Below, one piece after another: positions 4,457 to 63,510 of a DNA stretch of 64,000 nucleotides. The stretch is from Noviherbaspirillum denitrificans (GTDB taxonomy: Bacteria > Pseudomonadota > Gammaproteobacteria > Burkholderiales > Burkholderiaceae_D). The notes beneath the pieces were generated by a model. That model ran no database searches. It was not told the origin of the DNA and saw only the letters and a program-made list of their open reading frames with translations. Positions within the stretch are counted from its first letter, which is position 1. Each line of letters opens with the position of its first letter. Made by a program: the position numbers and the translations under genes. Where the stretch lies: positions 1-64,000 of the forward strand of contig NZ_LSTO01000003.1 of NCBI RefSeq assembly GCF_002211445.1. Direction: 5' to 3'.

Positions 4457-5857
4457 CTAGTGATACGAATCGCTGCTGCTCCCCTGCATCGACGCATCAT
4501 CCTTCTTCTGCATCGCTCCCTCATACGGCCCGTATTCCTCCAGCCGGTTGTACAGCGTCTTCAGGCTGATCCCGAGGATGTCCGCGGCGCGCTTCTTCAC
4601 ACCGCCGCAGAGCTCAAGCGTCGCATAAATCAGCTTGCGGTCGACGTCGGCCAGTGACGTTCCCACCGGAATCGCCAGTGTGAGGCCCACCGGCGACTGG
4701 GTGGTGATAACCGGCGCCAGGGCAGCAGCGTCGATCGTATGGTCGGACAGGATGAATGCCCGCTGGACATAGTTGCGCAACTCGCGCACGTTGCCCGGCC
4801 AGTGGTAGTTGCCCAGGCAAGCCAGTGCATCGGGCGACAGTACCTTGCTCGTGCCATGGGCGGCATTGAGCTGTTCGAGGAAATGCTCGGCGAGCAGCTC
4901 GACGTCGCTGCCGCGCTCACGAAGCGGCGGAATCTTCAGCGGGAACACGTTGAGCCGGTGATAGAGGTCCAGCCGCAGCTTGCCATCCGTGACCGCCTGT
5001 TCGGGATCGCGATTGCTGGCCGCAATCACGCGCACGTCGGTCTCGATCTGCTGGTTGCTGCCGATGCGCATGAACGATCCGGTCTCCAGCACGCGCAACA
5101 GTTTCACCTGCAACTCGATCGGCATCTCGGTGATCTCGTCGAGGAACAGCGTACCGCCGTTGGCACGTTCGAAATAGCCCTTGTGCTGTCGGTCCGCACC
5201 GGTGAAGCTGCCTTTTTCGTGGCCAAAGATTTCGCTCTCGATGAGTTGCGGCGAGATCGCGCCGCAGTTGACCGGCAGGAAGGGATGCTTGGAGCGCAGG
5301 CTCAGTTCATGGATGGTCTGCGCGGCCAATTCCTTGCCTGTGCCGCTCTCGCCGAGCAGCAATACCGTTGCCTCCGTCGGCGCGACGCGCGCGACGTGGT
5401 TGTAAAGCTTCTGCATTGCCGGGGCGACGCCCAGCATCTGGCCGAAATGGCCGAGGCGCCGCAATTCGCTGCGCAGCACGCCGATTTCTTCCTTCAAATC
5501 GACCGTGCGCGGAATGCGCGACAGCAAGGCCTTGAGGCGTCGGAAATTGATCGGCTTGGTCAGGTAGTCGGCCGCCCCCAAGCGCAAAGCCTCGACCGCG
5601 GTTTCCACGCTGGCGTGGCCGGTGATCAGGACGATCTCGGTGGTGGCGCGCGATTCGATGTCGTTGAACAAATCCATCCCGCTGCCGTCCGGCAGATTCA
5701 GGTCGATCAGCACGACGTCGGGGCGCTGGCGCATGATCTGCGCCTGCGCTTCCTTGATGTTGCCCGCCACCGCCGTGCTGAATCCTTCGGCACCGGTGAT
5801 CTCGACTAGCGCTTCTCGCGTGTTGACGTCATCGTCAACGATCAATACATGGGGCAT
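4457..5857 (-). CDS. Sigma-54-dependent response regulator, NtrC family
   Basis: The 466-residue protein has a receiver domain (1-115, VLIVDDD at the start and phospho-Asp52 in [10 protein letters not shown]). An AAA+ sigma-54 interaction domain follows (about 150-385), with Walker A GESGTGKE, the sigma-54 contact loop as GSFTGA instead of the classical GAFTGA, and Walker [12 protein letters not shown]. The C-terminal Fis-type helix-turn-helix contains [16 protein letters not shown] Ser-rich tail follows. I begin at ATG 5857 ([10 protein letters not shown]), which has GAGAGAG upstream; a longer frame to 5941 adds 28 residues that do not look like receiver sequence. It should activate sigma-54 promoters after phosphorylation. 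No kinase gene is co-directional; the hybrid kinase just downstream is convergent. Confidence 0.94.
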
Positions 5858-6201
5858 ATAAACCGCTCTCTCTATGTTGTCCGGCAATACGTTGTCAGGC
5901 GCGCCATGCATCAATGCCTGCGCCGTACAGGCGCATGCCAATGCATGTCATGGGGAAAAGAATCTTGGGGCCGGCTGCTACATCGGGATGCCGTCGTTTT
6001 GTGGCCTGACTTTCACAGCATATGTCCCTTGCCGCCATTGTCCAAGGGCGCGTCGCAGCGCTTATTGAGCAAGAACAGCGGACAGCGATGTTGTTCTCCG
6101 CGGCGCCGGTAGCGGTCAGGGCCGGCGTCCCGAATCACGAGAGTTCAGCACTCACCGCCGGAGCATCCGCTCCGGAATCGGCGAACGCTTTGCGGAGATG
6201 A
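5858..6201. other. Intergenic region with a hairpin after the lipoprotein gene
   Basis: The 344 bases hold the promoter region of the response-regulator gene and the 3' flank of the small lipoprotein gene. CCGGAGC (6158-6164) and GCTCCGG (6169-6175) form a 7-bp stem with a 4-base loop about 27 bases past the lipoprotein stop codon. It has no T-run, so terminator function is uncertain. No convincing gene was found. Confidence 0.45.
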
Positions 6202-6636: not shown

Positions 6637-6820
6637 ACTTGGACAGAGGTGAGCACTGCATACACGCATGAAGCGATATCGTGTATCGTTGACTTGTCCA
6701 TCTCCGCTACCGCGCACACTTCGAGGTGCTTTTTGCGCGAGGGAACTGAATTAACGCAAGAGACTCTTCAGGCTTTGGTGTAACTTGATCGCAGCCCCGG
6801 TCAATGCCTGGACGCCCCCC

Positions 6821-7771
6821 ATGACCATCGACAACTCATTCAAACGCTTCGGAATTCTTTACGGTTCCTCCACGGCGATGGAGCAGCTCCATCAGCAGGT
6901 GGAAAGGGTCGCCTCGACCGATGCCACGGTGTTGCTCGTCGGCGAAAGCGGAACAGGCAAGGAACTGATCGCCAACGCGATCCATCATGCCAGCGCTCGC
7001 CGCGACGAAACCTTTGTCGCGGTTAACTGCGGCGCCATTCCCGCGCACCTGATCGAGGCCGCGCTTTTCGGACACGAGAAGGGAAGTTTCACGGGCGCGT
7101 CGCGGCAACACATCGGCTATTTCGAACACGCATCGCGTGGCACGCTGTTCCTGGATGAAATCACTGAGATGCCGGTCGACATGCAGGTAAAGTTGCTGCG
7201 CGTTCTTGAAGCAGGCACCTTCCTGCGCGTGGGCGGCGATGAGGAAGTGAAGGTCGACGTACGCCTCGTGGCGGCAACCAACCGCGACCTCGACACCGCG
7301 GTCAAGCAGGGCAACCTGCGCGAAGACCTGATGTACCGCCTTGCCGTATTCCCGGTGCGCGTGCCGCCCTTGCGTGAGCGCGGCAGCGACATCGAGATGC
7401 TCGCGCTGCATTTCCTCGAGGCGCTGAACGAAAAGGAAGGCACGCAGAAAGTCTTCTCGCGCAATTCCCTCGATGTGATCCGTTCCTACTCCTGGCCGGG
7501 GAACGTGCGTGAGTTGAAGAACGTGGTGCAGCGCGCCTTCATCCTCGCGACTGATACGCTGGACATCGAAGAATGCATTTCCGACCTTGCCGCAAAGAAG
7601 CCGACGGTGCACGAGGGCTACCTCAACTTCTTTGTCGGGACGCCCCTGGCGGATGCACAGAAGGAAATCATCCTTGCCACCTTGAAGCACTACAGCGGCA
7701 ACAAGCGCCTCACGGCGGAGGCGCTCGGGATCAGCCTGAAGACGCTTTACAACCGGTTGAAGGAATATTAA
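6821..7771 (+). CDS. Sigma-54 activator lacking a receiver domain (PspF-like architecture)
   Basis: This 316-residue protein begins almost directly with the AAA+ sigma-54 domain. Walker A is GESGTGKE, the sigma-54 contact loop is GSFTGA and Walker B is [13 protein letters not shown]-terminal Fis-type helix-turn-helix ends at [15 protein letters not shown]. There is no N-terminal receiver, GAF or PAS domain, so activity must be controlled by expression or by a partner, as in PspF. It closely resembles the C-terminal two thirds of the regulator at 4457-5857, including the near-identical last 15 residues, which suggests duplication and loss of the receiver. I prefer ATG 6821, although no good ribosome binding site is visible; a TTG at 6785 would add 12 residues. 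Confidence 0.88.
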
Positions 7772-24031: not shown

Positions 24032-25069
24032 ATGCACCACTCCCTCAACCAACGCCCGCCGTTTTCCTACCGTCGCTCGCACGCAGTCCTGCTTGCTGCC
24101 GGCATCTGCATCGCACAGGGTGCGATGGCACAGACCGCGAATACCCAAGCGACTTACGACGCGACCAACGTTTACTATCGCATCCCGTATTCCAGCACGC
24201 CGCAATGGGTTCGCGTGTATATCGATGCCGATCGTAACGCATCGACCGGCTATCGCTTCGGCACCATCGGCGCGAGTTACCTCATCGAGAACGGCAACCT
24301 GTATCGCTATACCGGTACCGGCGGCACGAACTGGTCCTGGTCCCTGGTGAAGCGCGTCGGCTACTCGGCCGGTGCCACCTCTGCCAGTGTCACCGTGGCC
24401 CGTGCTGACCTGGGTTCTCCGGCCGCTCTCGACCTGATGACCAATACGACGCCGCCGACACTGACGTCGGCAAAGATCACCCAGACGTTCACCGTTCCGG
24501 CGCCTACCGCAACCAGCGACGCGACCAACGTGTATTACACAATTCCGTTCAGCGGCACCCCGAGCTGGGTGCGCGTGTACCTCGATACGGATCGCAGCGC
24601 CACCACCGGCTACCGCGTGGGCACCATCGGCGCAAGCCACCTGGTCGAAAACGGTAGCCTCTACCGCTACGCGGGCACCGGCACGAACTGGTCGTGGACG
24701 TATGTGAAGCGTGTTGGCTACACGCTCGGCACATCAAGCGCCAGCGTCACTATTGCACGTACTGACCTGGGATCCCCTGCTGGCATCAATCTCATCACGA
24801 ATACCGATCCGCCGACGCAAACCTCGGCCGCCCTCAGCCAGACCCTTTCGTCGACGACGGCACCGGCGCCGGCGCCGGCTCCAGCGCCCGCTCCCGCACC
24901 GGCTCCAGCGCCCGCTCCCGCACCGGCTCCGGCCCCTGCGCCCGCTCCGGCACCAGCGCCTGCTCCCGCACCGGCCCCGGCACCTGCGCCCGCTCCGGCA
25001 CCAGCGCCTGCTCCCGCACCGGCTCCGGCACCAGCGCCTGCTCCGACTACCGGTTATTCCGCCTGCTAA
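24032..25069 (+). CDS. Secreted protein with two repeated domains and a Pro-Ala tail
   Basis: A 345-residue protein of unknown function. An N-terminal signal peptide (hydrophobic AVLLAAGICIAQGAMAQ, cleavage after AMA near residue 33) is followed by two copies of an approximately 110-residue domain (about 38-150 and 155-270). Both carry DATNVYY, WVRVY(I/L)D(A/T)DR, TGYR, GTIGAS, ENG-LYRY, NWSW, VKRVGY and a DLGSPA motif; the pattern suggests a small beta-sandwich, possibly glycan-binding, but I recognise no named family. Residues 276-337 are almost pure Pro-Ala repeats, a stiff spacer of the kind that crosses the wall or periplasm, ending in TTGYSAC with a C-terminal Cys. The ATG has AAAGG upstream. 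It precedes a Tat-lipoprotein gene by 47 bases and is probably co-transcribed. Confidence 0.82.
   Translation: MHHSLNQRPPFSYRRSHAVLLAAGICIAQGAMAQTANTQATYDATNVYYRIPYSSTPQWVRVYIDADRNASTGYRFGTIGASYLIENGNLYRYTGTGGTNWSWSLVKRVGYSAGATSASVTVARADLGSPAALDLMTNTTPPTLTSAKITQTFTVPAPTATSDATNVYYTIPFSGTPSWVRVYLDTDRSATTGYRVGTIGASHLVENGSLYRYAGTGTNWSWTYVKRVGYTLGTSSASVTIARTDLGSPAGINLITNTDPPTQTSAALSQTLSSTTAPAPAPAPAPAPAPAPAPAPAPAPAPAPAPAPAPAPAPAPAPAPAPAPAPAPAPAPAPAPAPTTGYSAC
24858..25044 (+). repeat. Tandem repeat encoding the Pro-Ala tail
   Basis: The DNA is a run of CCG/CCC/CCT and GCA/GCG/GCT codons built from 6-base units and higher-order blocks of roughly 24-48 bases; for example CCAGCGCCCGCTCCCGCACC occurs twice in succession and related blocks follow. 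Gains or losses of 6-base units keep the frame, so the tail length could vary between strains without inactivating the gene. Confidence 0.85.
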
Positions 25070-45543: not shown

Positions 45544-46821
45544 TCACAGGCGCAGGTCTGACGCTGACTTGGGGAGGAGATACTTCAGGTCGAAGAGCAC
45601 GTGCCTCTCCTTGCCGAATTGCCGCACGCCGCCTATTCCCAGTTCCTTGAACTGCCGGTGGGCGACGGCCAGGACAATCGCGTCATACTTTCCGGGTTCG
45701 GGAGAGCGAATCGGGGTGATGCCGTACTCGTGCTGCGCCCCCTCGGGGCTGACCCAGGGATCGTAGACGTCGACATTCATGTTGTAGTCCTTCAGCTTGT
45801 TGATGCTGTCGACCACCTTGGTGTTGCGCAGGTCGGGGCAGTTTTCCTTGAAGGCCAGGCCCATCACGAGCACGTTGGCGTTTTCAACCTGGATGCGGCG
45901 GCGGATCATCTGCTTGATGAGCTGGCCGACAACATAGCCGCCCATGTTGTCGTTGATGCGCCGGCCCGCCAGGATCACCTGCGGGTGGTAACCGAGCGCT
46001 TCTGCCTTGTGGGTCAGGTAGTAAGGGTCCACGCCGATGCAATGCCCGCCGACGAGGCCGGGGCGGAACGGCATGAAGTTCCACTTTGTCCCGGCGGCCT
46101 TCAGCACATCTTCCGTGTCGATGCCCATCTTCCTGAAGATGATGGCCAGCTCGTTCATCAGTGCGATGTTGAGATCGCGTTGCGTGTTCTCGATCACCTT
46201 TGCCGCTTCGGCGACCTTGATCGAAGCAGCCTTGTGCGTTCCGGCGGCGATGATGCTGCCATACAGGGCATCGACGAAATCCGCGACCTCTGGCGTGGAT
46301 CCGGACGTGATCTTTGTAATGGTGGTCAGGCGGTGCTCCTTGTCGCCCGGATTGATGCGTTCCGGGCTGTAGCCGGCGTAGAAATCCTTGTTGAACACAA
46401 GTCCCGACACGCGTTCAATGACAGGAACGCAGTACTCCTCGGTCGCTCCCGGATACACCGTGGACTCGTACACGACGATGTCTCCCGGCTTGATGACCTT
46501 GCCCACCGTTTCCGACGCCGACCTGAGTGGCGTAAGGTCAGGGTTCTTGTGCTCGTCGACCGGCGTGGGTACGGTCACGATATACACTGTCGCACGCCGC
46601 AAATCCTCGACATCCGTGGAGAAGCTCAGGCGCAGAGCCTCCTCGAGTTCCCCGCGGCTTGTCTCGAGTGTCACGTCCGAACCGTTTCGCAGTTCATCGA
46701 CCCGGCGCTTGTTGATGTCGAATCCGATCGTCGGATAATGTTTGCCGAATTCCACGGCCAAAGGCAGTCCGACGTAACCGAGGCCGATGATTGCGATACA
46801 GGTGTTTTTCGATATTTTCAT
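45544..46821 (-). CDS. wbpO: UDP-N-acetyl-hexosamine 6-dehydrogenase (WbpO/TviB-like)
   Basis: A 425-residue NAD-dependent dehydrogenase that oxidises C6 of UDP-GalNAc or UDP-GlcNAc to the uronic acid. [20 protein letters not shown] is the Rossmann motif; [31 protein letters not shown], the catalytic Cys in [15 protein letters not shown] and the Lys in [19 protein letters not shown] follow. First gene of the 14-gene operon, 66 bases after the ops element. ATG 46821 is supported by homology; its ribosome binding site is weak. Confidence 0.95.
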
Positions 46822-46886
46822 GATTAGCCGGTTCTTATCTTCAAGTACGCACAGTCGTTGTTGACAACCTTTACGCATCGACCGGG

Positions 46887-46898
46887 CACGCTACCGCC
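46887..46898 (-). promoter_or_regulatory. ops element (RfaH recruitment site, JUMPStart core)
   Basis: The minus strand reads GGCGGTAGCGTG, a perfect copy of the E. coli ops core. The bases before it, TTTAATCCAAG, resemble the upstream half of the JUMPStart sequence (TTAAGCCAGG). It lies in the leader of the wbpO operon, 66 bases before its ATG and less than 200 bases behind a gene for an RfaH-type protein. RfaH binds ops in the exposed non-template strand of a paused polymerase. Confidence 0.85.
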
Positions 46899-46919
46899 CT
46901 TGGATTAAAGGTCATCATC

Positions 46920-46949
46920 CATATCCTTCGATCAATCACATTTGCACAA
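46920..46949 (-). promoter_or_regulatory. Candidate promoter of the wbpO-rmlA operon
   Basis: On the minus strand TTGTGC (46949-46944) and GATATG (46925-46920) are separated by 18 bases, a moderate sigma-70 match. Transcription would begin near 46912 and meet the ops element about 15-25 bases later. Read-through from rfaH is the alternative source of the transcript. Confidence 0.4.
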
Positions 46950-47086
46950 CGAGACGATTGCGAGATCGCCTTGCCTTAGCGGCCCACTGCATTCACTGGA
47001 ACCTGGTCCAGGTCGTTTGTCCGGATGATCCCGGCGCACGCGCTACCGATGATGACCCGCCTTGAAAAACAGCCTTAAATCCCTGG

Positions 47087-47584
47087 TTAAGCAGCCTTTC
47101 GCAGCATCTGTACTGCGAGCTTCAACTTGTGCGGCTGGTTCATCAGCTCGATCAAGACCAGGGCGCGCGCCTCCCCATCGTGCATCTGATAAATTCCCTC
47201 CAGGCCGGCAAACGGTCCCTGAATGACGCTGACACGATCGCCAGGTTCGAAGAGCCGGCGAGGACGCTCTTCCTGTGCGCTTTGCAGCGCTGCCACGCAG
47301 TCGTCCGGCAAGGTCGCAAACCGGCCGCCAAAAGACACCAGCTTGCTGACGCCGCGCGTGCTCCTGACCGGGGACCAGTTGTCGCGTCCGAGGTCGAGCC
47401 GGATAAACAGGTAGCGGGAGAACATCGGTTCGACACACTCTTCGAGCTTGCCTTGCACCAGTTTCTCAACGGCGAGCGTGGGCAAAAAGCAGGTGAAATC
47501 CTGGTTACGAAGCTGCTCCACCGCACGCAACTCTTGCCGCGGCTTTGTCTGCACGAGGTACCACGCCGCCGTCGTTCCATTCAT
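47087..47584 (-). CDS. rfaH: NusG-paralogue transcription antiterminator, RfaH type
   Basis: A 165-residue protein with a NusG N-terminal domain (AWYLVQTKPRQELRAVEQLR, CFLPTLAVEKL, MFSRYLFIRLDL, RSTRGVSKLVSFGG) and a C-terminal KOW domain (FEPGDRVSVIQGPFAGLEGI). It binds RNA polymerase paused at an ops site and suppresses termination in long surface-polysaccharide operons. I start at ATG 47584, because AAGGGA lies seven bases before it; it overlaps the wecA stop codon as ATGA, so translation is coupled. A perfect ops site lies 190 bases downstream, before wbpO. UpxY-type regulators are an alternative name. Confidence 0.9.
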   Translation of the reverse strand: MNGTTAAWYLVQTKPRQELRAVEQLRNQDFTCFLPTLAVEKLVQGKLEECVEPMFSRYLFIRLDLGRDNWSPVRSTRGVSKLVSFGGRFATLPDDCVAALQSAQEERPRRLFEPGDRVSVIQGPFAGLEGIYQMHDGEARALVLIELMNQPHKLKLAVQMLRKAA

Positions 47585-48744
47585 TGCCATTCCCTTGCAA
47601 CAGACTGCGACCGAAAGAAGCCAAGGGCAATTGCAGGATTGGGATCCCACCGCCCGCGGACCAGGCGTGTGTACACGGCGATGTAAATCAGTACGTGTGC
47701 GACCAGGACCCCAACAGCATTGCCGACCGTGTCCCCGATCAGGACGGTGACCAGCGTGGTTGACGCGATCCAGCCGCTCATAAAGCATGCGACCACCGCA
47801 TTCCTGGCCCACGGGCGCTGGTCATTGCGTGCCAGGCGCAAGCACACTACGCGTCGATAGAAGAGCGTATGAAGATGAAGCCTGTCCGGAGCGCCAGGAC
47901 TGGTCCTGCGAATGACCTTCCTGCGGTACATGCTGTAGAGCACTTCAATCACCGGATAGGCGCAGACAGCCAGAACCTGCCACGCATTGACTTTTGGATT
48001 TCGGATGACGAGCAGCACCGCCACTTCTGCCAGCCAGAATCCGAGGAAGTAGGCGCCGCCGTCCCCCATGAACAGCCGGCCGGTCGGATAGTTAACAAGG
48101 AGGAATCCAAGTGCGGCGCCGATGCCGAGCATCGCGAGATGCATGACAAATACGTCGTTGCTCTGCCATGAAAGGTAGGCCAATCCGGCAAGCATGATGA
48201 CGACCGCGCTGCCGGCGACACCGTGAAACCCATCGATGATATTGATCGAGTTTGCGACGCCGGCCACGGCCACGGCGGTGACAGCGACTGCAAGCAGCGG
48301 TATCAGCTGCAGGATCGCGTCAACACCCCAGAGGTCCAGTCGCGACAAGGATGCGTCCAGCAACCAGGCCGCGAGCAGCGCGCTGGCAAGCGTCGCCATC
48401 AAGCGCGCCTTCACCGAGACCTTTTTCGTCAGGTCCTCGACAAGCCCTGTGAGAAATGCGGGTGTGGAGGCCAGCAGCAGTTTGCTTAGTTCAAACGTAT
48501 CCAGTTGCACAGCGAATCCATCGTCGATCGCCTGGGCCGTCACGACAGAGGCAATCCCGACCAGCAGCGCGATTCCGCCCACACGCGGCACGGGCTGATT
48601 GTGGATTTTCTGTATCCCGCCGATGGTCAGGTCAAGTGAATGCTTGCCATGCCAGTTCTGGGTAAAGATAATCAGCAAGCTTGCGATGAAGCTGGCCAGC
48701 GCGGCGAATGCCGCGATATCGATCATGTTCGTGAATGAGATCAT
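47581..48744 (-). CDS. Undecaprenyl-phosphate glycosyl-1-phosphate transferase (WecA/MraY family)
   Basis: A 387-residue membrane protein with about 11 helices. It should start repeat-unit synthesis by moving an N-acetylhexosamine-1-phosphate (GlcNAc-1-P in WecA) to undecaprenyl phosphate. Family motifs are IHNQPVPRVGG, VEDLTKKVSVKARL, GVANSINIIDGFHGVAG (catalytic Asp pair), YPTGRLFMGDGGAYFLGF and the C-terminal PDRLHLHTLFYRR with the His-rich motif. The start at ATG 48744 has a weak GGTG; ATG seven codons in is possible. It is driven from the promoter with the shared 24-bp element, and translationally coupled to rfaH. Confidence 0.92.
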   Translation of the reverse strand: MISFTNMIDIAAFAALASFIASLLIIFTQNWHGKHSLDLTIGGIQKIHNQPVPRVGGIALLVGIASVVTAQAIDDGFAVQLDTFELSKLLLASTPAFLTGLVEDLTKKVSVKARLMATLASALLAAWLLDASLSRLDLWGVDAILQLIPLLAVAVTAVAVAGVANSINIIDGFHGVAGSAVVIMLAGLAYLSWQSNDVFVMHLAMLGIGAALGFLLVNYPTGRLFMGDGGAYFLGFWLAEVAVLLVIRNPKVNAWQVLAVCAYPVIEVLYSMYRRKVIRRTSPGAPDRLHLHTLFYRRVVCLRLARNDQRPWARNAVVACFMSGWIASTTLVTVLIGDTVGNAVGVLVAHVLIYIAVYTRLVRGRWDPNPAIALGFFRSQSVAREWQ

Positions 48745-49279
48745 GTTTGCACCACGCGAAACTGTTTCTCTCTATCCTCGATTCGGGACGCACTTGAGGA
48801 CGAAGCTGGCCGGGTGTTCCGCTGGTGCGCGCAGGAGAAATGACCGCGAACCAAGGCTGACCGGGCGAATGAATGCACGCGAAATCTGCATCTGGAACTG
48901 ACTCCCTTCGAGAAAACACAGGCCGGTCGTCTTTGCGACCAAGGCTGCGATGGTTATCACTCTACTGAGGTGGGGGGCAAAAAATAAGTACGAAATTTCG
49001 ATGGTTTATCGTTACCTTCGATAGAATCCATCCGTTTTTTTGAATCGATTGCGCGGCCGGATTTCATTCACGCAGGCCGACACTTCGGCGGTGATGCCGG
49101 TCGTGTTCCGGAGATTCAGTGAGAGCGAATGCGTCTGGCAGGTCATGTCGACCGGCACGTGCATGCATGGCTGGTGCGCCTGCATCTTCAGGGGGATATT
49201 GGAATCGCGTAGAGGGCGCGTCGCATGGATGCGAATCGTCGTCTACGCGCTTTGACGCGCTTCGTTACCGCATATCGGT
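48745..49279. other. Intergenic region between wecA and wzc
   Basis: The 535 bases contain the wecA leader (about 200 bases), the promoter module at 48954-49002, and about 280 bases downstream of wzc. Past the wzc stop, AAGCGCGT occurs twice in tandem on the minus strand near 49242-49262. I see no clear terminator and no supportable gene. Confidence 0.5.
48954..49002 (-). promoter_or_regulatory. wecA-rfaH promoter with 24-bp shared element (copy A)
   Basis: The 24 bases at 48979-49002 are identical to 51713-51736 upstream of wzc. The core on the minus strand is ATCGAAATTTCGTACTTATT and contains the palindrome CGAAATTTCG. The element ends in a T-run overlapping a -35-like TTTTGC (48982-48977); 17 bases further is TGATAA (48959-48954), a possible -10. 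Copy B has the same arrangement (TTTTCA, 17 bases, TGATAG). This looks like an activator site abutting a weak -35 box. The start point would be about 200 bases before wecA. Confidence 0.65.
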
Positions 49280-51517
49280 TTACGCCTTGCCCTCACTCGC
49301 TACATAGCCGTACTTTCCATACGCTGCATCGTAGCCATAGCGGGAAAAGCGCTGTTTGGAATCGTTGAATACGACACCGGTGACTTTGTGGCCTGCCTGA
49401 TTCAAGCGCCTGACCGTTTCCTCGATCTCGCCGGTGGTTGTTTGTCCGCCGCGCACAACATTGAAGATAGCGCCGGCGTGCGAGGCGACGACCAGGGCGT
49501 CCGACACGGCGAGAAGAGGCGGCGTATCAATCAGGATGTAGTCGTAACGCGCGGAGAACAGTTCGAGCAGTTTTCCAAAGTTGTCATGCGCAAGCAATTC
49601 TGTAGGCTTGCGCGGGATTTGTCCCGAGGACAGGAAGTCCACGTTTTCCGCGACGTCCCTGCGAATCGCCTTCCCGTACATCGCTTCACCGGTAATCACT
49701 TCCGACAAACCTGGTGATCGTTCCATTCCAAAGTATCGGTGCAGATGCCCGGAGCGCATGTCGCCGTCGATGAGCAGCACCTTCTTGCCGATCGACGCGA
49801 GCACAGCCGCAAAATTTGCGGAGACAAACGACTTCCCGACGCTTGGGGTCGCGCCTGCGATCATCACGATGTTGTTCTTCGCTTCCAGCATTGCAAACTG
49901 CAGGGATGTGCGGAACCTGCGCAGGCTCTCGATCGTCCCGTCGTAGGGAACATCCAGCGGCAGTACCGCCGCACCCTGCTTGTCGTGCTGCAGCCTGGCG
50001 TGCACCTTGTCCTGGCTCGCGCTATGGGGAATGGTGGCGGTCACCGGCAATCCAAGCCGTTCTTCGATTTCGCGCGGCCCGTCGATGCGGCCGTAGATCG
50101 ACTTGCGTGCGAGCGCAGCCATGATTCCAAGGACAATCCCGACCATGCCGGTCAGCACGAGCACCAGGCTGCGCTTTGGCTTGATCGGCCTGAGCGGTAC
50201 CACGGCGGTATCGAGGACACGGACGCTTCCCACATTGCTCTCGGTGGCGACGCGAAGCTGTTGGGCAGCGCTCAACAAGGCCGTGTACAGGTCGGTATTG
50301 ATCTTCACATCGCGATTGAGACGCAAGACGTTCTGCTCCACGTCGGGCAGTTTCTTGATTCTTGCTTCGATGCCCGCGATCTCGCGACGCAGTCCGTCCA
50401 TCTGCTGGTCGAGCGCAAGTACGCTGGGGTGGTTCGGCTGATAGCGCGTCAGCAGGTCGTCCTTCTTTTGCTTCAGCTCGAGCAGCTTTGTCTGGGTCAT
50501 CACGGACTGCGACAGCGCGCTCTTCGCTTCTTCTCCCAGGTCGACTGTCCCGCGGCTGTTGCGAAGCTGGTTGTATTTTGTTTCCGACTGTTCGAGTTCC
50601 TTTTTCAGCTCGGGCAGCTGGGTATTGAGGAAGGTGAGAGTTTTCTTTGCCTCTTCTGCTTTCTTGTCGATGTTCAGCGCCACGTATTCACGTCCGATCT
50701 CGTTAAGAATCGTGCTGATCAACTTCGGATTCGGCCCCTCCAATGCAACGTCGATAATGCCGGACTGCTTTCCCTTTTCGCCGATATTCAGCCCCTCCTG
50801 GAGCCTCTCCACCGTTTCCAGCCGTCCGGCGCGCGAGAGCGTGAACTGCGCGCCCGCCTTCGCATTCAACTGATCCACGCGCAGCTCGAGCACGCCTTGT
50901 CCGGTCTTGTTCGTCAGCGTGTCTCCTGCTTTGCCGGCGACGTCGATTCCATATTCATCCTGCGTCAGGCGATAGCCGCCACTGCCATTCGCAGTGAGGA
51001 TGAACGGTTTTCCTTCCAGCTCTTCCGGCACATTGAACTCGGACACCTTCGCCTGTTCCGATCCCCATACATAGCCGCCAAGGCCGAAGAGCCCGGGTTC
51101 CGAGATCTGCTTGCTACGGCGCGCAATCCATTCCCCGATCAGTGGAAAGTACTTGGGTTTGACGCTTATATAGAATCGGCCGCTGTCCACGGCACGCGTG
51201 ATCACCGCGCGGGAGCGCAGCACTTCCATCTCGGCCGCGACAGCGGCTTTCGTGTCGTGGTTGGTCTCGCTGCCCGCCAGTTCGACCGGCATGCTCTTCG
51301 GACGTGCGGAATCGCTTTCCACCTTCACGAGCATATTGGCCTTGTAGATCGGCGTCGCAACAAGCACATAGGCGAGGCCGAGGAGCATGACAACAAAGGC
51401 CACGCCGGCGATCAGCCATCGATTGTCAAAGAAAAACCCGAGATATTTGGCCAGGTCAACCGTATCGTCTTCTTCAATGATGTGGGTTTGAAGTTGATTG
51501 GTAGTCGGATTCATCAT
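49280..51517 (-). CDS. wzc: Polysaccharide co-polymerase / tyrosine autokinase (Wzc-like)
   Basis: A 745-residue inner-membrane BY-kinase. A Wzz domain starts at TVDLAKYLGFFFDNRWLIAG, with the first membrane helix near residues 35-57; a long periplasmic coiled-coil part follows (EEAKKTLTFLNTQLPELKKE), then PLRPIKPKRSLVLVLTGMVG and the second helix near 450. The kinase has Walker A GATPSVGKSFVSAN, Walker A' VLLIDGDMRSG and Walker B ILIDTPPLL. The C-terminal tyrosine cluster is RFSRYGYDAAYGKYGYVASE. It controls chain length and export. The partner genes wza (outer-membrane channel) and wzb (phosphatase) are not adjacent. Single gene with its own promoter (copy B element). Confidence 0.94.
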   Translation of the reverse strand: MMNPTTNQLQTHIIEEDDTVDLAKYLGFFFDNRWLIAGVAFVVMLLGLAYVLVATPIYKANMLVKVESDSARPKSMPVELAGSETNHDTKAAVAAEMEVLRSRAVITRAVDSGRFYISVKPKYFPLIGEWIARRSKQISEPGLFGLGGYVWGSEQAKVSEFNVPEELEGKPFILTANGSGGYRLTQDEYGIDVAGKAGDTLTNKTGQGVLELRVDQLNAKAGAQFTLSRAGRLETVERLQEGLNIGEKGKQSGIIDVALEGPNPKLISTILNEIGREYVALNIDKKAEEAKKTLTFLNTQLPELKKELEQSETKYNQLRNSRGTVDLGEEAKSALSQSVMTQTKLLELKQKKDDLLTRYQPNHPSVLALDQQMDGLRREIAGIEARIKKLPDVEQNVLRLNRDVKINTDLYTALLSAAQQLRVATESNVGSVRVLDTAVVPLRPIKPKRSLVLVLTGMVGIVLGIMAALARKSIYGRIDGPREIEERLGLPVTATIPHSASQDKVHARLQHDKQGAAVLPLDVPYDGTIESLRRFRTSLQFAMLEAKNNIVMIAGATPSVGKSFVSANFAAVLASIGKKVLLIDGDMRSGHLHRYFGMERSPGLSEVITGEAMYGKAIRRDVAENVDFLSSGQIPRKPTELLAHDNFGKLLELFSARYDYILIDTPPLLAVSDALVVASHAGAIFNVVRGGQTTTGEIEETVRRLNQAGHKVTGVVFNDSKQRFSRYGYDAAYGKYGYVASEGKA

Positions 51518-51687
51518 GGTGGCTGAATTGGAATGAGTGACTGCATCGATACATGCGAGTCGTTCGGAGAAATCCGGTGGTCATGCTTCACGCCATGGAA
51601 CCCTTGCTTTTTATATTGCGATTCTATTTGATACGCTTCCTCATCCGGGTTCGATCGGACGCTGGCATATGCTGGTTGAGTCCAACG

Positions 51688-51736
51688 CTATCAATTTACC
51701 CGGGTGGCCCTGAAAAAATAAGTACGAAATTTCGAT
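51688..51736 (-). promoter_or_regulatory. wzc promoter with 24-bp shared element (copy B)
   Basis: The 24 bases 51713-51736 repeat exactly those at 48979-49002. On the minus strand the element runs into TTTTCA (51716-51711), then 17 bases, then TGATAG (51693-51688). Outside the 24 bases the two copies still agree at many positions (CACC, GTA, TGATA), at the same spacing. The start point would be about 165 bases before the wzc ATG at 51517. Confidence 0.65.
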
Positions 51737-51826
51737 TCCTGGTGGGTCGATCCAGGTTTTTACATTGAGTTTTTAGATGCAAATTCTGGGGCGGGGACAC
51801 TGCGATGCAGAGCTGCTTATCGCTGG

Positions 51827-51875
51827 AAAAAAACTGACGGCCGCAAAAATTCGCGGTCGAACTTTTGCGGCCGTG
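51827..51875 (-). terminator. Rho-independent terminator after the tyrosinase gene
   Basis: ACGGCCGCAAAA (51838-51849) and TTTTGCGGCCGT (51864-51875) are perfect 12-base arms. On the minus strand the hairpin is followed by CAG and seven T. It lies 66 bases after the tyrosinase stop codon and isolates that gene from the wzc promoter. The rest of 51518-51940 holds the wzc leader and no gene. Confidence 0.88.
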
Positions 51876-51940
51876 CATGAATACCTGCTCGTCCTGGTTG
51901 TGACGAGGAGTCTGCCGGCAATGGCCGGCATCCTTGTCGA

Positions 51941-53398
51941 TTATCGGTAGGGTTCTCCTGCAGGTTTCGTGATCAATGGGCTGGTGTCATACGGCTCTTT
52001 TCTCGACACCTCGACGCGAAGTTCTCCGATTTCAATCGTTGGTGCTTGCGGCGAGTTCGGGCCGCTCACACGTACCAGGGTCACGGCCAGTGTCCGGATG
52101 TCCCCCGGCGCGACGTTCCCAAGCACTTGTGTTGCCGGGAAGGTCAATCGGGCCGGTCCGTGATGAGAAGCCGAATTGATTTCGAACGGACCGATCGTGC
52201 CGATGAAATTCTCCGGCTCGGAAGGCTCGCCTCTTTCCGGCACGCTCAAGAATACGTTGTAGTAGAAGCCTCCAAGCATGCCTGCATCCAGCAGTCGCAC
52301 ATCGTCGAGCACGACTTGTACCGACTTGTACGCATTGGACGGCACCGCCCGTGACGCGCCGCGAGCCGCCTCTGCCGCAGCGATTCCACGCAATGTCTGT
52401 CCGTCCTCCGACAGAACCGGTATGCGCACACGAACCGTGCTTCCGGCCAATGTGACCTTCCGCCCACCTCCGAGCTTTCGCGCATCGTTTCCACTGGGAC
52501 CGGGAGGAACTGCGGGGAACGTATCTCCCGAGCCTGGAATTTGCGCCTGGACGCGAATGAGTCGTGCCGACATTCCCTGTGCTGGAAGCGAGGTAGGCTT
52601 GTTGTTGTTGGAATAGGTGGTGCCAAGGCGCAGGGGGTGATAACACTGGGAGCGTGCCAAGGTAAGGTCCGGGGCGTAGGTGAAATTTCCTGACCAGTAA
52701 GGAGACGTAGCCGCCGGTATTCCCTTGCCGTCCGGGAGTGCCCACGCGTGCCAAAGCCGGTCGATGTTGGCGTGATGCAGATAGAAAATCGGATCGAGCG
52801 GTGATTCCATCGTGGCCATTACTCCGGCAATAATGTTGTGCACCGGGTTATGCGGCTTCGACTCGATCAGCGGTTCGAATGCATTGGGTCGTCCCCGCTC
52901 GAAATTCCAGACCGTCGAAGCGAACGGTGACAGCGACAGCGCGCTATATACATTTGTGTTTACGCGTCCGGAAATATACAAAGGATTGCCGGTCGCCGGA
53001 TCGGTGAATTCCGACGGTATGGTTGGATAGGTGTAATAGTCCCAGTATGGAAGTGCAAGGTTGCTGTTTCCGGAAACAATCTGGAGTTGCCGTTCGAAAT
53101 AATAGATGTAACCCCGGTGCCATGCGAGGAAATAGGGAGCGCTGTGCGGACAATAATTCACGTGGACGTTCGTCCAGTAGCGCCAGCTCGACCGGCTGTT
53201 TGCATCCGTATTTGCGCGCATGATCCGAAGCGCGTCGATGAATGATGAATAGTTGGGACTGCTTCTGAATTCGCGCCATTCCTGCCGAAGCCGGGTTGTG
53301 GTCTGGCCGAATACGGTTGTGGCCGGAAGCGAAGCGATCGCCAGGGCAGATAACGACCCCTTAACGAAAGCTCGCCTGCTGATTTGTTTGGACAGCAT
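51941..53398 (-). CDS. Tat-exported tyrosinase-family copper oxidase
   Basis: A 485-residue protein with a twin-arginine signal (ISRRAFVKGSLSALAIASLP, cleavage near VFGQ), so it is exported folded, with copper. The CuA site is in HVNYCPHSAPYFLAWHRGYI and the CuB site in HNPVHNIIAGVMATMESP with FYLHHANIDRLWHAW, giving the six His ligands. The domain ends near residue 290; a C-terminal region of about 190 residues has beta-rich character and resembles the polyphenol-oxidase DWL/KFDV-like or shielding region. It may oxidise phenols to quinones and melanin outside the cytoplasm. ATG 53398 has CAGGAG at six bases. It is its own unit between wzc and the second WbqC gene. Confidence 0.9.
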   Translation of the reverse strand: MLSKQISRRAFVKGSLSALAIASLPATTVFGQTTTRLRQEWREFRSSPNYSSFIDALRIMRANTDANSRSSWRYWTNVHVNYCPHSAPYFLAWHRGYIYYFERQLQIVSGNSNLALPYWDYYTYPTIPSEFTDPATGNPLYISGRVNTNVYSALSLSPFASTVWNFERGRPNAFEPLIESKPHNPVHNIIAGVMATMESPLDPIFYLHHANIDRLWHAWALPDGKGIPAATSPYWSGNFTYAPDLTLARSQCYHPLRLGTTYSNNNKPTSLPAQGMSARLIRVQAQIPGSGDTFPAVPPGPSGNDARKLGGGRKVTLAGSTVRVRIPVLSEDGQTLRGIAAAEAARGASRAVPSNAYKSVQVVLDDVRLLDAGMLGGFYYNVFLSVPERGEPSEPENFIGTIGPFEINSASHHGPARLTFPATQVLGNVAPGDIRTLAVTLVRVSGPNSPQAPTIEIGELRVEVSRKEPYDTSPLITKPAGEPYR

Positions 53399-62154: not shown

Positions 62155-63510
62155 ATGAAACTCCGGCAAAAGATCATTGTCCTGGCCATCGCGCCGCTCA
62201 TTGTGGCGCTGATCGCCCTTGCTCTCGCCGTCCGCTACCAGGCGACCATCCTGGCGCAGCAGCAGCGAGCGTCGGTTGAAGCCGCCTACCTCGCCAGCAA
62301 GGAAGCCGAACTCAAGCACTATGTGTCGCTCGCGGAACGCTCCATCGCCGATCTCGTGGATTCCGGTCGCAACGACGAAGCCACCAAGGATGCGGCCAAG
62401 GCCATCCTGGCCAAGCTCGACTATGGCGACGACGGTTATTTCTTTCTCTATGACCTTGAGGGCCGCAATCTCATGCATCCGCGCCAGCCTGAGCTTGTCG
62501 GCCGCAATCTCTGGGAATTGCGCGACACGAAAGGCAGCCCGACCATTCAGCGGCTGATCGCGCAAGCCAAGACAGGCGGCGGATATGTCCGCTATCTCTG
62601 GGAAAAGCCATCCACCGGCAAGGTGGCGCCCAAGCTTGGCTATGTCGTCAAGGTCGACCGCTGGGGATGGATGCTCGGCACCGGCATCTACCTCGACGAC
62701 GTCGACGCCGCGCTGGCAAAGATAGACACGCAAATCTCCGGAAATATCCGCAATACGATGCTGTGGATTGCAGGAATCGCCATTGCCAGCGTCCTCGTGA
62801 TCGCCCTGTCCGGCCTAGCGTTGAATATCAGCGAATACCGCGTCGCCGACGCCAAGCTCCGCGTGCTTGCCCAGCGCGTCGTGCGCTCGCAGGAAGAAGA
62901 GCGCGCGCGGCTCTCTCGCGACCTGCACGACGGCATCAGTCAGTGGCTGGTGTCGATCAAGCTGCAGGTCGAATCGGGCATCGCCAAGCTGGCCGCGCAG
63001 GCCGGCAAACCCGAAGTGGCGCGCGCCTCCTTCGACCGCGCCGCAAATCAGCTCAACGACGTGCTTGGCGAAGTCCGGCGCATCTCCCACGACCTGCGCC
63101 CCGCCCTCCTGGACGACCTCGGCCTCGCTCCCGCGCTCGACCACTTGACTCGCGAATTCAGTGACAGCACCGGCATTGCAACGGATTTTGAAGTGGAAGG
63201 TACGATCGAAGGCTTGAACGATGTGGCTAACACTGTCCTGTTCCGCATCGCCCAGGAAGCACTGACCAACATCAAGCGCCACGCCAACGCATCGAATACC
63301 CGCGTGCGCCTGGAGGGCGACAAGGTTTCGGTGAAGCTGGTGGTCGCGGACAACGGTGTCGGCTTCGACGTCGCCGGCATCGCCCAACATCCCAAGCGCG
63401 GTATCGGCCTGCGCAACATGCACGAACGCGTCAATGCCATTGGCGGCAAGCTCGAACTGGCTTCGTCCGCTGAAGGCACGCAAGTTACAGCAACCCTATC
63501 CCGGTCCTGA
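62155..63510 (+). CDS. Cache-domain sensor histidine kinase, NarX/DegS type
   Basis: A 451-residue membrane kinase. Helix one (IIVLAIAPLIVALIALALAV) and helix two (MLWIAGIAIASVLVIALSGL, near 203-222) bracket a periplasmic single Cache domain with GDDGYFFLYDLEGRNLMHP, GGGYVRYLWEKPSTGK and GWMLGTGIYLDDVD. This subtype often senses small organic acids. The HisKA_3 box RSQEEERARLSRDLHDGIS holds the phospho-His, and the HATPase part has FRIAQEALTNIKRHANA and RGIGLRNMHERV. It lies 5 bases before a NarL-type regulator gene, its evident partner. The signal is unknown. Confidence 0.93.
   Translation: MKLRQKIIVLAIAPLIVALIALALAVRYQATILAQQQRASVEAAYLASKEAELKHYVSLAERSIADLVDSGRNDEATKDAAKAILAKLDYGDDGYFFLYDLEGRNLMHPRQPELVGRNLWELRDTKGSPTIQRLIAQAKTGGGYVRYLWEKPSTGKVAPKLGYVVKVDRWGWMLGTGIYLDDVDAALAKIDTQISGNIRNTMLWIAGIAIASVLVIALSGLALNISEYRVADAKLRVLAQRVVRSQEEERARLSRDLHDGISQWLVSIKLQVESGIAKLAAQAGKPEVARASFDRAANQLNDVLGEVRRISHDLRPALLDDLGLAPALDHLTREFSDSTGIATDFEVEGTIEGLNDVANTVLFRIAQEALTNIKRHANASNTRVRLEGDKVSVKLVVADNGVGFDVAGIAQHPKRGIGLRNMHERVNAIGGKLELASSAEGTQVTATLSRS

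Follow-up and report, generated by a model that had tools for sequence, protein, structure and literature searches.

An identical 24-base element at the wecA-like and wzc promoters of Noviherbaspirillum denitrificans as half of a probable LysR-type operator

The promoters of a wecA-like glycosyl transferase gene and of a wzc-like chain-length autokinase gene in Noviherbaspirillum denitrificans, both located in a stretch of 64,000 nucleotides of contig NZ_LSTO01000003.1 (hereafter the window), share an identical 24-base element, AAAAAATAAGTACGAAATTTCGAT, which lies on the minus strand at positions 48979-49002 and 51713-51736 and points in each case to its downstream gene. Judged from its conservation among relatives, this 24-mer belongs to a longer, two-box operator, of which it is the promoter-proximal half. 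Both promoters are probably activated through this operator by a LysR-type transcriptional regulator (LTTR), the likely protein being the LTTR encoded at G000:C1:3916940-3917962 of the same genome. A broader proposal, which we hold to be about as likely right as wrong, is that this LTTR, so far undescribed, serves as a dedicated biofilm-matrix switch of Noviherbaspirillum and neighbouring Oxalobacteraceae and acts through ATC-N9-GAT, 27 bp and ATC-N9-TAC; it would turn on the initiation, antitermination and chain-length functions of polysaccharide synthesis and, alongside them, a compact Fap-like amyloid system with several tiny secreted peptides, each with its own copy of the promoter.

The preliminary description of the window had claimed 24 identical bases in the same orientation and position at the two promoters, followed by TTTT(G/C)(C/A), a 17-base gap and TGATA(A/G), and all of these are present at both sites. 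Across 60 order-1 Markov copies of the window, direct repeats reached at most 19 bases, vs the 24 observed; the window also contains longer repeats, and those listed fall within a GC-rich run that codes for Pro and Ala, at about 24.9-25.0 kb. An 18-mer core with up to three mismatches has two matches in the window where 0.04 are expected, and both matches of a 16-mer core with up to two mismatches in the genome (5.8 Mb searched, 97.9% complete) are these same two sites, the reversed control giving one. A dispersed repeat family, the outcome that the preliminary description had named as fatal to its proposal, is thus not what the core search found. The uniqueness of the element and its conservation both argue for the common transcription-factor site beside a weak -35 box that was proposed to link the two promoters. 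Similar DNA in plasmids was uninformative: the 18 records were all 60-80% identical, and the best five of the rows listed span 14-18% of the query. A leader RNA or riboswitch was rejected as an explanation of the leaders, since no Rfam covariance model matched to E = 1 across 46800-52100.

Searching 61 sources (the window and 60 further loci) for ATCGAAATTTNNTACTTA at no more than two mismatches yielded 57 distinct sites, which stem from Noviherbaspirillum and its neighbours and are kin by descent, hence not independent events. A sigma-70 -10 hexamer of the form TANANT begins 19 or 20 bases after the element in 51 of the 57 sites, a fraction that is somewhat inflated because the pattern used to pick loci L104-L117 had the -10 built in; another set of loci was picked without it. 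Two details of the preliminary description do not survive this comparison: TGATA, which it had taken as the -10 element, stands at the matching place in 9/57 sites, vs 51/57 for TANANT, which starts 5 bases earlier, and its CGAAATTTCG palindrome is exact in 7/57. Exactly 42 bases upstream of the element lies a second conserved block, ATC-N-AAAAA-N-T-N-GAT, in a region that played no part in selecting the loci; the preliminary description had not reported this second box. At this offset, ATC-N9-GAT is matched at five or more of its six positions in 38/57 sites, vs at most four sites at any other offset from -90 to -15, and T-N11-A occurs in 42/57, the next best offset reaching 13. The flanks vary from site to site while the spacing and the -10 stay the same. 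In a survey sample of 294 genomes of the family, 15 of them from the same genus, the two-box pattern without the -10 (up to three mismatches) was found at 31 places in 11 of the 15 from the genus. None of the 15 gave a control match, and the genome of the window contains exactly two such sites.

The proximal box, ATC-N9-TAC, lies at about -50 to -36 and the upstream box at about -92 to -78; since their starts are 42 bp apart, the two would face the same side of the helix. An upstream T-N11-A box is thus accompanied by a second T-N11-A box that overlaps or abuts the -35 on the same helix face, and this arrangement is the anatomy of an LTTR operator. A simple consensus scan of the minus strand for the sigma-54 element TGGYA-N6-YTGC found none at 48880-49110 or 51500-51850; a bare GG-N10-GC occurs once in each promoter stretch, and that of wzc overlaps its -10.

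LTTR promoters are described as having a recognition binding site (RBS) upstream and a second, activation binding site (ABS) at the -35, some 60 bp in all (PMC8407307). The present promoters resemble these in the T-N11-A box upstream, in the site at the -35 and in the divergent or adjacent position of the LTTR gene in several genera, and they differ in the 42-bp start-to-start distance, in an ABS that is better conserved than the RBS, in the regulator being unlinked in the genome of the window, and in the lack of a visible autoregulatory box at 11/16 LTTR genes. The nod box of NodD, another LysR-family protein, is a 47-bp region built of ATC-N9-GAT modules (PMC5596368); the likeness of the palindromic module is one of operator code, not of function. 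Unlike in the nod box, the second module here is ATC-N9-TAC, so that only the distal box fits the nod-box pattern, and the targets are exopolysaccharide (EPS) and amyloid-like genes.

The preliminary description noted that no regulator gene adjoins the element in N. denitrificans, which agrees with what we find, and it offered as candidates the regulators at 4.5, 6.8 and 63.5 kb or one elsewhere. The two at 4.5 and 6.8 kb belong to the sigma-54-type AAA+ activators and not to the LTTRs, and the simple consensus scan found no sigma-54 element at either promoter, which makes these two unlikely. Near 63.5 kb lies a Cache-domain histidine kinase (62155-63510), and the examination covered this gene alone, not one crossing the window edge. 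A regulator elsewhere is the suggestion that stood: the best-linked candidate, the LTTR named above, is on a different contig from its presumed targets, beside a VpsR-like gene. It was first found by reading the loci. Its HTH_1 (66.1 bits) and LysR_substrate (85.7 bits) domains score above cutoff, and no named LTTR subfamily of NCBIfam reaches its cutoff for the three proteins compared, with 25 listed models each (of 41-44); among the matches listed, the best for the LTTR of N. denitrificans is PunR, at 76.8 bits vs a cutoff of 345.

Linkage between this LTTR and the element recurs beyond the genus. Nine genomes outside it carry the element at no more than two mismatches, seven of which (G002, G015, G024, G031, G066, G078, and G084) have an LTTR homologue within 2.7 kb; in G016 and G103, where a 19-base spacer costs three mismatches, the LTTR is within 1.7 kb of the element, and in G054 and G085, with AT-rich element matches, no LTTR match was obtained at E 1e-45. 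A regulator adjacent to or divergent from its target, at up to 2.7 kb, is thereby found in nine genomes outside the genus and not in the genome of the window. The gene precedes wzc or wecA, is divergent from these genes, or lies within the peptide locus. An LTTR profile reaches at least 440 bits in 23/294 genomes, and the element (no more than two mismatches) is present in 18/23 of these vs 2/271 others. A tree of 38 LTTR rows places 12, all from the genus, in a supported clade; genus row G058 groups with G066, genus members G141 and G173 fall outside the 12-row clade, the branching among the other genera is not resolved and long branches meet, so that no more is drawn from the tree.

A test outside the training set was provided by seven more distant genomes in which the LTTR lies beside EPS genes and which contributed no site to the motif model. 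A two-box match scoring 13.8-31.3 was obtained at 6/6 wecA promoters scored (L154, L155, L156, L159, L163, and L173), whereas 464 overlapping control stretches of reversed and complemented sequence gave no more than 4.3; four of the six sites had been noticed before scoring. The -10 is correctly placed at all six diverged operators, and the distal box is one base further away in three of them. The association between LTTR and operator is accordingly a strong rule, and not a universal one because some distant LTTR loci have no site or no EPS neighbour. Within the survey, G206 has the LTTR without the element and G195 has it with no site or a weak one; G206, G195, G215, G023, and G081 possess only a 42-44% identical paralogue of wecA and no orthologue, and that target is therefore missing in them. 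In G206 and G195, where the identity of this paralogue is 42%, no FapF-like gene was found. As an observation apart, in five loci from another genus of the family (L155, L159, L161, L163, and L173) the LTTR gene directly precedes the wzc-like gene, which is followed by wecA in 4/5, and the diverged operator was found at wecA only.

The core of the element at no more than one mismatch occurs in 15/294 family genomes, and 8 of the 15 sampled genus members are included in that number; a longer promoter pattern with up to three mismatches occurs in 44/294. Within the genus, this pattern is present in 14/15 genomes, with 41 matches vs 1 control match. Across 84,980 species genomes, the exact promoter pattern was found in 15 stretches, 14 of which belong to Noviherbaspirillum and near relatives: N. 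massiliense, N. autotrophicum, N. soli, Noviherbaspirillum sp. Root189, Herbaspirillum sp. ST 5-3, Oxalobacteraceae OM1, Paucimonas lemoignei, and metagenome-assembled genomes (MAGs) of a Herminiimonas and of a member of the Burkholderiales. The 15th, in a Caloramator MAG, is taken as a chance match. Operator-like sites are also seen at G023:C42:320605-320665 and 330218-330261, in a genus member the LTTR match of which is at the level of a paralogue.

The recognised genes downstream of the sites are mostly wzc, wecA-like, CapD/WbpM-like or nucleotide-sugar dehydrogenase genes, or genes for small secreted peptides, and several sites have no clear downstream gene. PIG-L-like and acyltransferase-like genes are further candidates by sequence reading, and the CapD-like gene was tested. 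The secreted peptides measure about 80-160 residues and are encoded by tandem genes, and in L061 the neighbours of these genes include a C39 peptidase resembling FapD (92.6 bits vs a curated cutoff of 330) and a barrel protein weakly similar to FapF (33.9 bits vs 700); one of three peptides scanned weakly resembles the curlin repeat (17.5 bits vs a cutoff of 20.7). In most taxa the Fap functional amyloid is encoded by a single fapABCDEF operon, and the FapD and FapF models are of low specificity, according to PMC3792158. The loci of the relatives share with that operon the combination of secreted peptides with an adjoining FapD-like C39 peptidase and FapF-like barrel, and differ from it in having several small peptide genes with their own promoters. 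They are here called Fap-like rather than Fap because the scores of both models fall below the curated cutoffs. A FapF-like gene is present in 7/15 genus genomes and absent from that of the window, where the predicted regulon therefore shrinks to two promoters.

The following sequence of events is proposed. LTTR subunits would bind the ATC-N9-GAT and ATC-N9-TAC boxes and, once bound, would bring sigma-70 RNA polymerase to promoters whose -35 is poor (TTATTT) and whose -10 (TANANT) is fair. The gene of the first sugar-phosphate transferase, the NusG/RfaH-like gene that follows it and the gene of the Wzc chain-length kinase would in this way be switched on together; an effector presumably controls the LTTR. 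In relatives, LTTR homologues also lie beside Fap-like amyloid genes that carry the same operator. Several LTTRs act on exopolysaccharide or biofilm genes, among them PhcA, SyrM, LrhA, CalR, and AcsS. These act upstream of such genes, whereas the present operator is located directly at the promoters of wecA and wzc. Vibrio offers a parallel in that one class of regulator, VpsR/VpsT, couples polysaccharide and other biofilm genes. VpsR and VpsT are AAA+ or LuxR-type proteins; here the regulator would be an LTTR instead. Among the open-licence PMC papers listed, judged from titles and the beginnings of abstracts, none describes this LTTR-operator system. If the proposal is true, EPS and amyloid-like genes would be coupled by an LTTR and not by the known circuits of Vibrio and Pseudomonas, and matrix production in environmental Burkholderiales would gain a regulator, an operator code and a list of targets that are readable from sequence. 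It would further predict which genomes can co-express both parts of the matrix, and would make the effector that triggers the matrix a directly testable question.

Several observations weigh against the LTTR as the regulator or narrow its reach. The usual spacing of LTTR boxes is about 30 bp, and 42 bp is wide; the proximal box is also more strongly conserved than the distal one. In the genome of the window the LTTR is not near wecA or wzc, and 11/16 LTTR genes have no operator box before them, the other 5 having loose matches, so that the usual autoregulation is not seen. The sharp separation by the LTTR profile at 440 bits is partly circular because motif-derived loci served to train the profile; when the LTTR of N. 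denitrificans is the sole query, the genomes outside the genus that bear the motif score 237-331 bits and overlap with motif-free ones, which reach 269. None of the 5 distant loci scored at wzc has a site there. The LTTR homologue of L158 adjoins a FapF-like gene with no site, and those of L157, L162, L164, and L171 have neither an EPS neighbour nor a site. In G215 two FapF-like genes have no element near them in the pattern scan, G023 has weak elements and yet an LTTR match at paralogue level only (282 bits), and G131, of genus g30, has no VpsR, LTTR or element.

Some of these points would suit other regulators that recognise the element, the LTTR being a mere neighbour through cluster inheritance. 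The linkage could stem from shared EPS or amyloid-like clusters, and some LTTR homologues have no nearby targets or sites; however, the T-N11-A box pair was found without the LTTR entering the selection, and linkage to the LTTR recurs with two unrelated target clusters, in divergent and in tandem arrangement, which leaves this explanation unlikely. Similarly improbable is that the LTTR binds and mainly represses. The proximal box does overlap the -35, LTTRs can repress and the sign of control is not readable from sequence, but the -35 is poor (TTATTT) and a box pair upstream of the start is the usual LTTR layout (PMC8407307). Still less likely is that the element is recognised by the VpsR-like AAA+ activator whose gene neighbours that of the LTTR in the genome of the window (L118:8019-9509, minus strand), and that this activator switches on these sigma-70 promoters. 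V. cholerae VpsR does activate sigma-70 promoters. The VpsR domain of this protein scores 30.9 bits vs a Pfam cutoff of 23.7, and the gene has a strong match in 14/15 genus genomes and adjoins the peptide genes in L053, L055, and L061, an adjacency for which it was initially favoured. It was dropped because its distribution outside the genus does not follow that of the element: counting matches of at least 95 bits and leaving out weaker ones, one of eight genomes with strong VpsR has the element at no more than two mismatches (p = 0.23), and 8/9 genomes with the element have no strong VpsR match. Of the six genomes sampled from genus g30, five carry VpsR; elements occur solely in G084 and G103, which also carry the LTTR, and G030, G062, and G118 have neither LTTR nor element. 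GAFTGA and Walker B are, moreover, intact in the three relatives translated, which indicates sigma-54, and the VpsR-like protein may thus work with sigma-54, unlike Vibrio VpsR. Finally, a functionless repeat that arose by chance or by recent duplication, for which the mere two copies in the genome of the window could speak, is barely credible given two-box sites in 11/15 genus genomes without a control match and a constant spacing and -10 between varied flanks. Activation by the LTTR through the two-box operator remains the preferred explanation.

Table 1. Elements of the two promoters and the genes that follow them (positions in the window).
Feature	Position	Strand	Basis or remark
wecA-like promoter, 24-mer with promoter-proximal LTTR box ATC-N9-TAC	48979..49002	-	TTATTTTTT overlaps the -35; conserved in 57 sites
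wecA-like promoter, upstream box TTCAAAAAAACGGAT	49030..49044	-	5/6 to ATC-N9-GAT, 42 bases upstream
wecA-like promoter, putative -35 TTATTT	48982..48987	-	17-bp spacer; placed by spacing to the conserved -10
wecA-like promoter, likely -10 TAGAGT	48959..48964	-	TANANT 19-20 bases downstream in 51/57 sites
wecA-like glycosyl transferase family 4, first downstream gene	47581..48744	-	leader about 0.2 kb
NusG/RfaH-like open reading frame, next gene after wecA-like	47087..47812	-	PF02357; true start probably internal
wzc promoter, identical 24-mer with promoter-proximal LTTR box	51713..51736	-	sequence identity
wzc promoter, upstream box ATCTAAAAACTCAAT	51764..51778	-	5/6 to ATC-N9-GAT, 42 bases upstream
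wzc promoter, putative -35 TTATTT	51716..51721	-	17-bp spacer; placement presumed
wzc promoter, likely -10 TAAATT	51693..51698	-	TANANT conservation
wzc-like chain-length tyrosine autokinase (exopolysaccharide transport family), first downstream gene	49280..51517	-	leader about 0.17 kb

Further observations concern the relatives and the rest of the window. Fap-like mini loci are found in L053 (6900-11121), L055 (7300-10300), L061 (7800-12211), L065 (1496-5287), L104 (3490-9816), and L106 (5928-12372). Their peptides have a signal peptide by eye, a LSAAEMDGVTAG-like motif and a tail of the form VQI..NTAxV..GN; several of the peptide genes carry their own copy of the operator, and a C39 peptidase and a FapF-like barrel adjoin. 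The Pro-Ala run of the window, at 24875-25044, is a tandem GC-rich coding repeat at the end of a predicted protein. About 23 bases recur in inverted orientation at 4554-4576 and 7724-7746 of the window, in the 3′ helix-turn-helix regions of the two sigma-54-type activators (4457-5941, minus strand, and 6785-7771, plus strand), and are probably conserved coding sequence.

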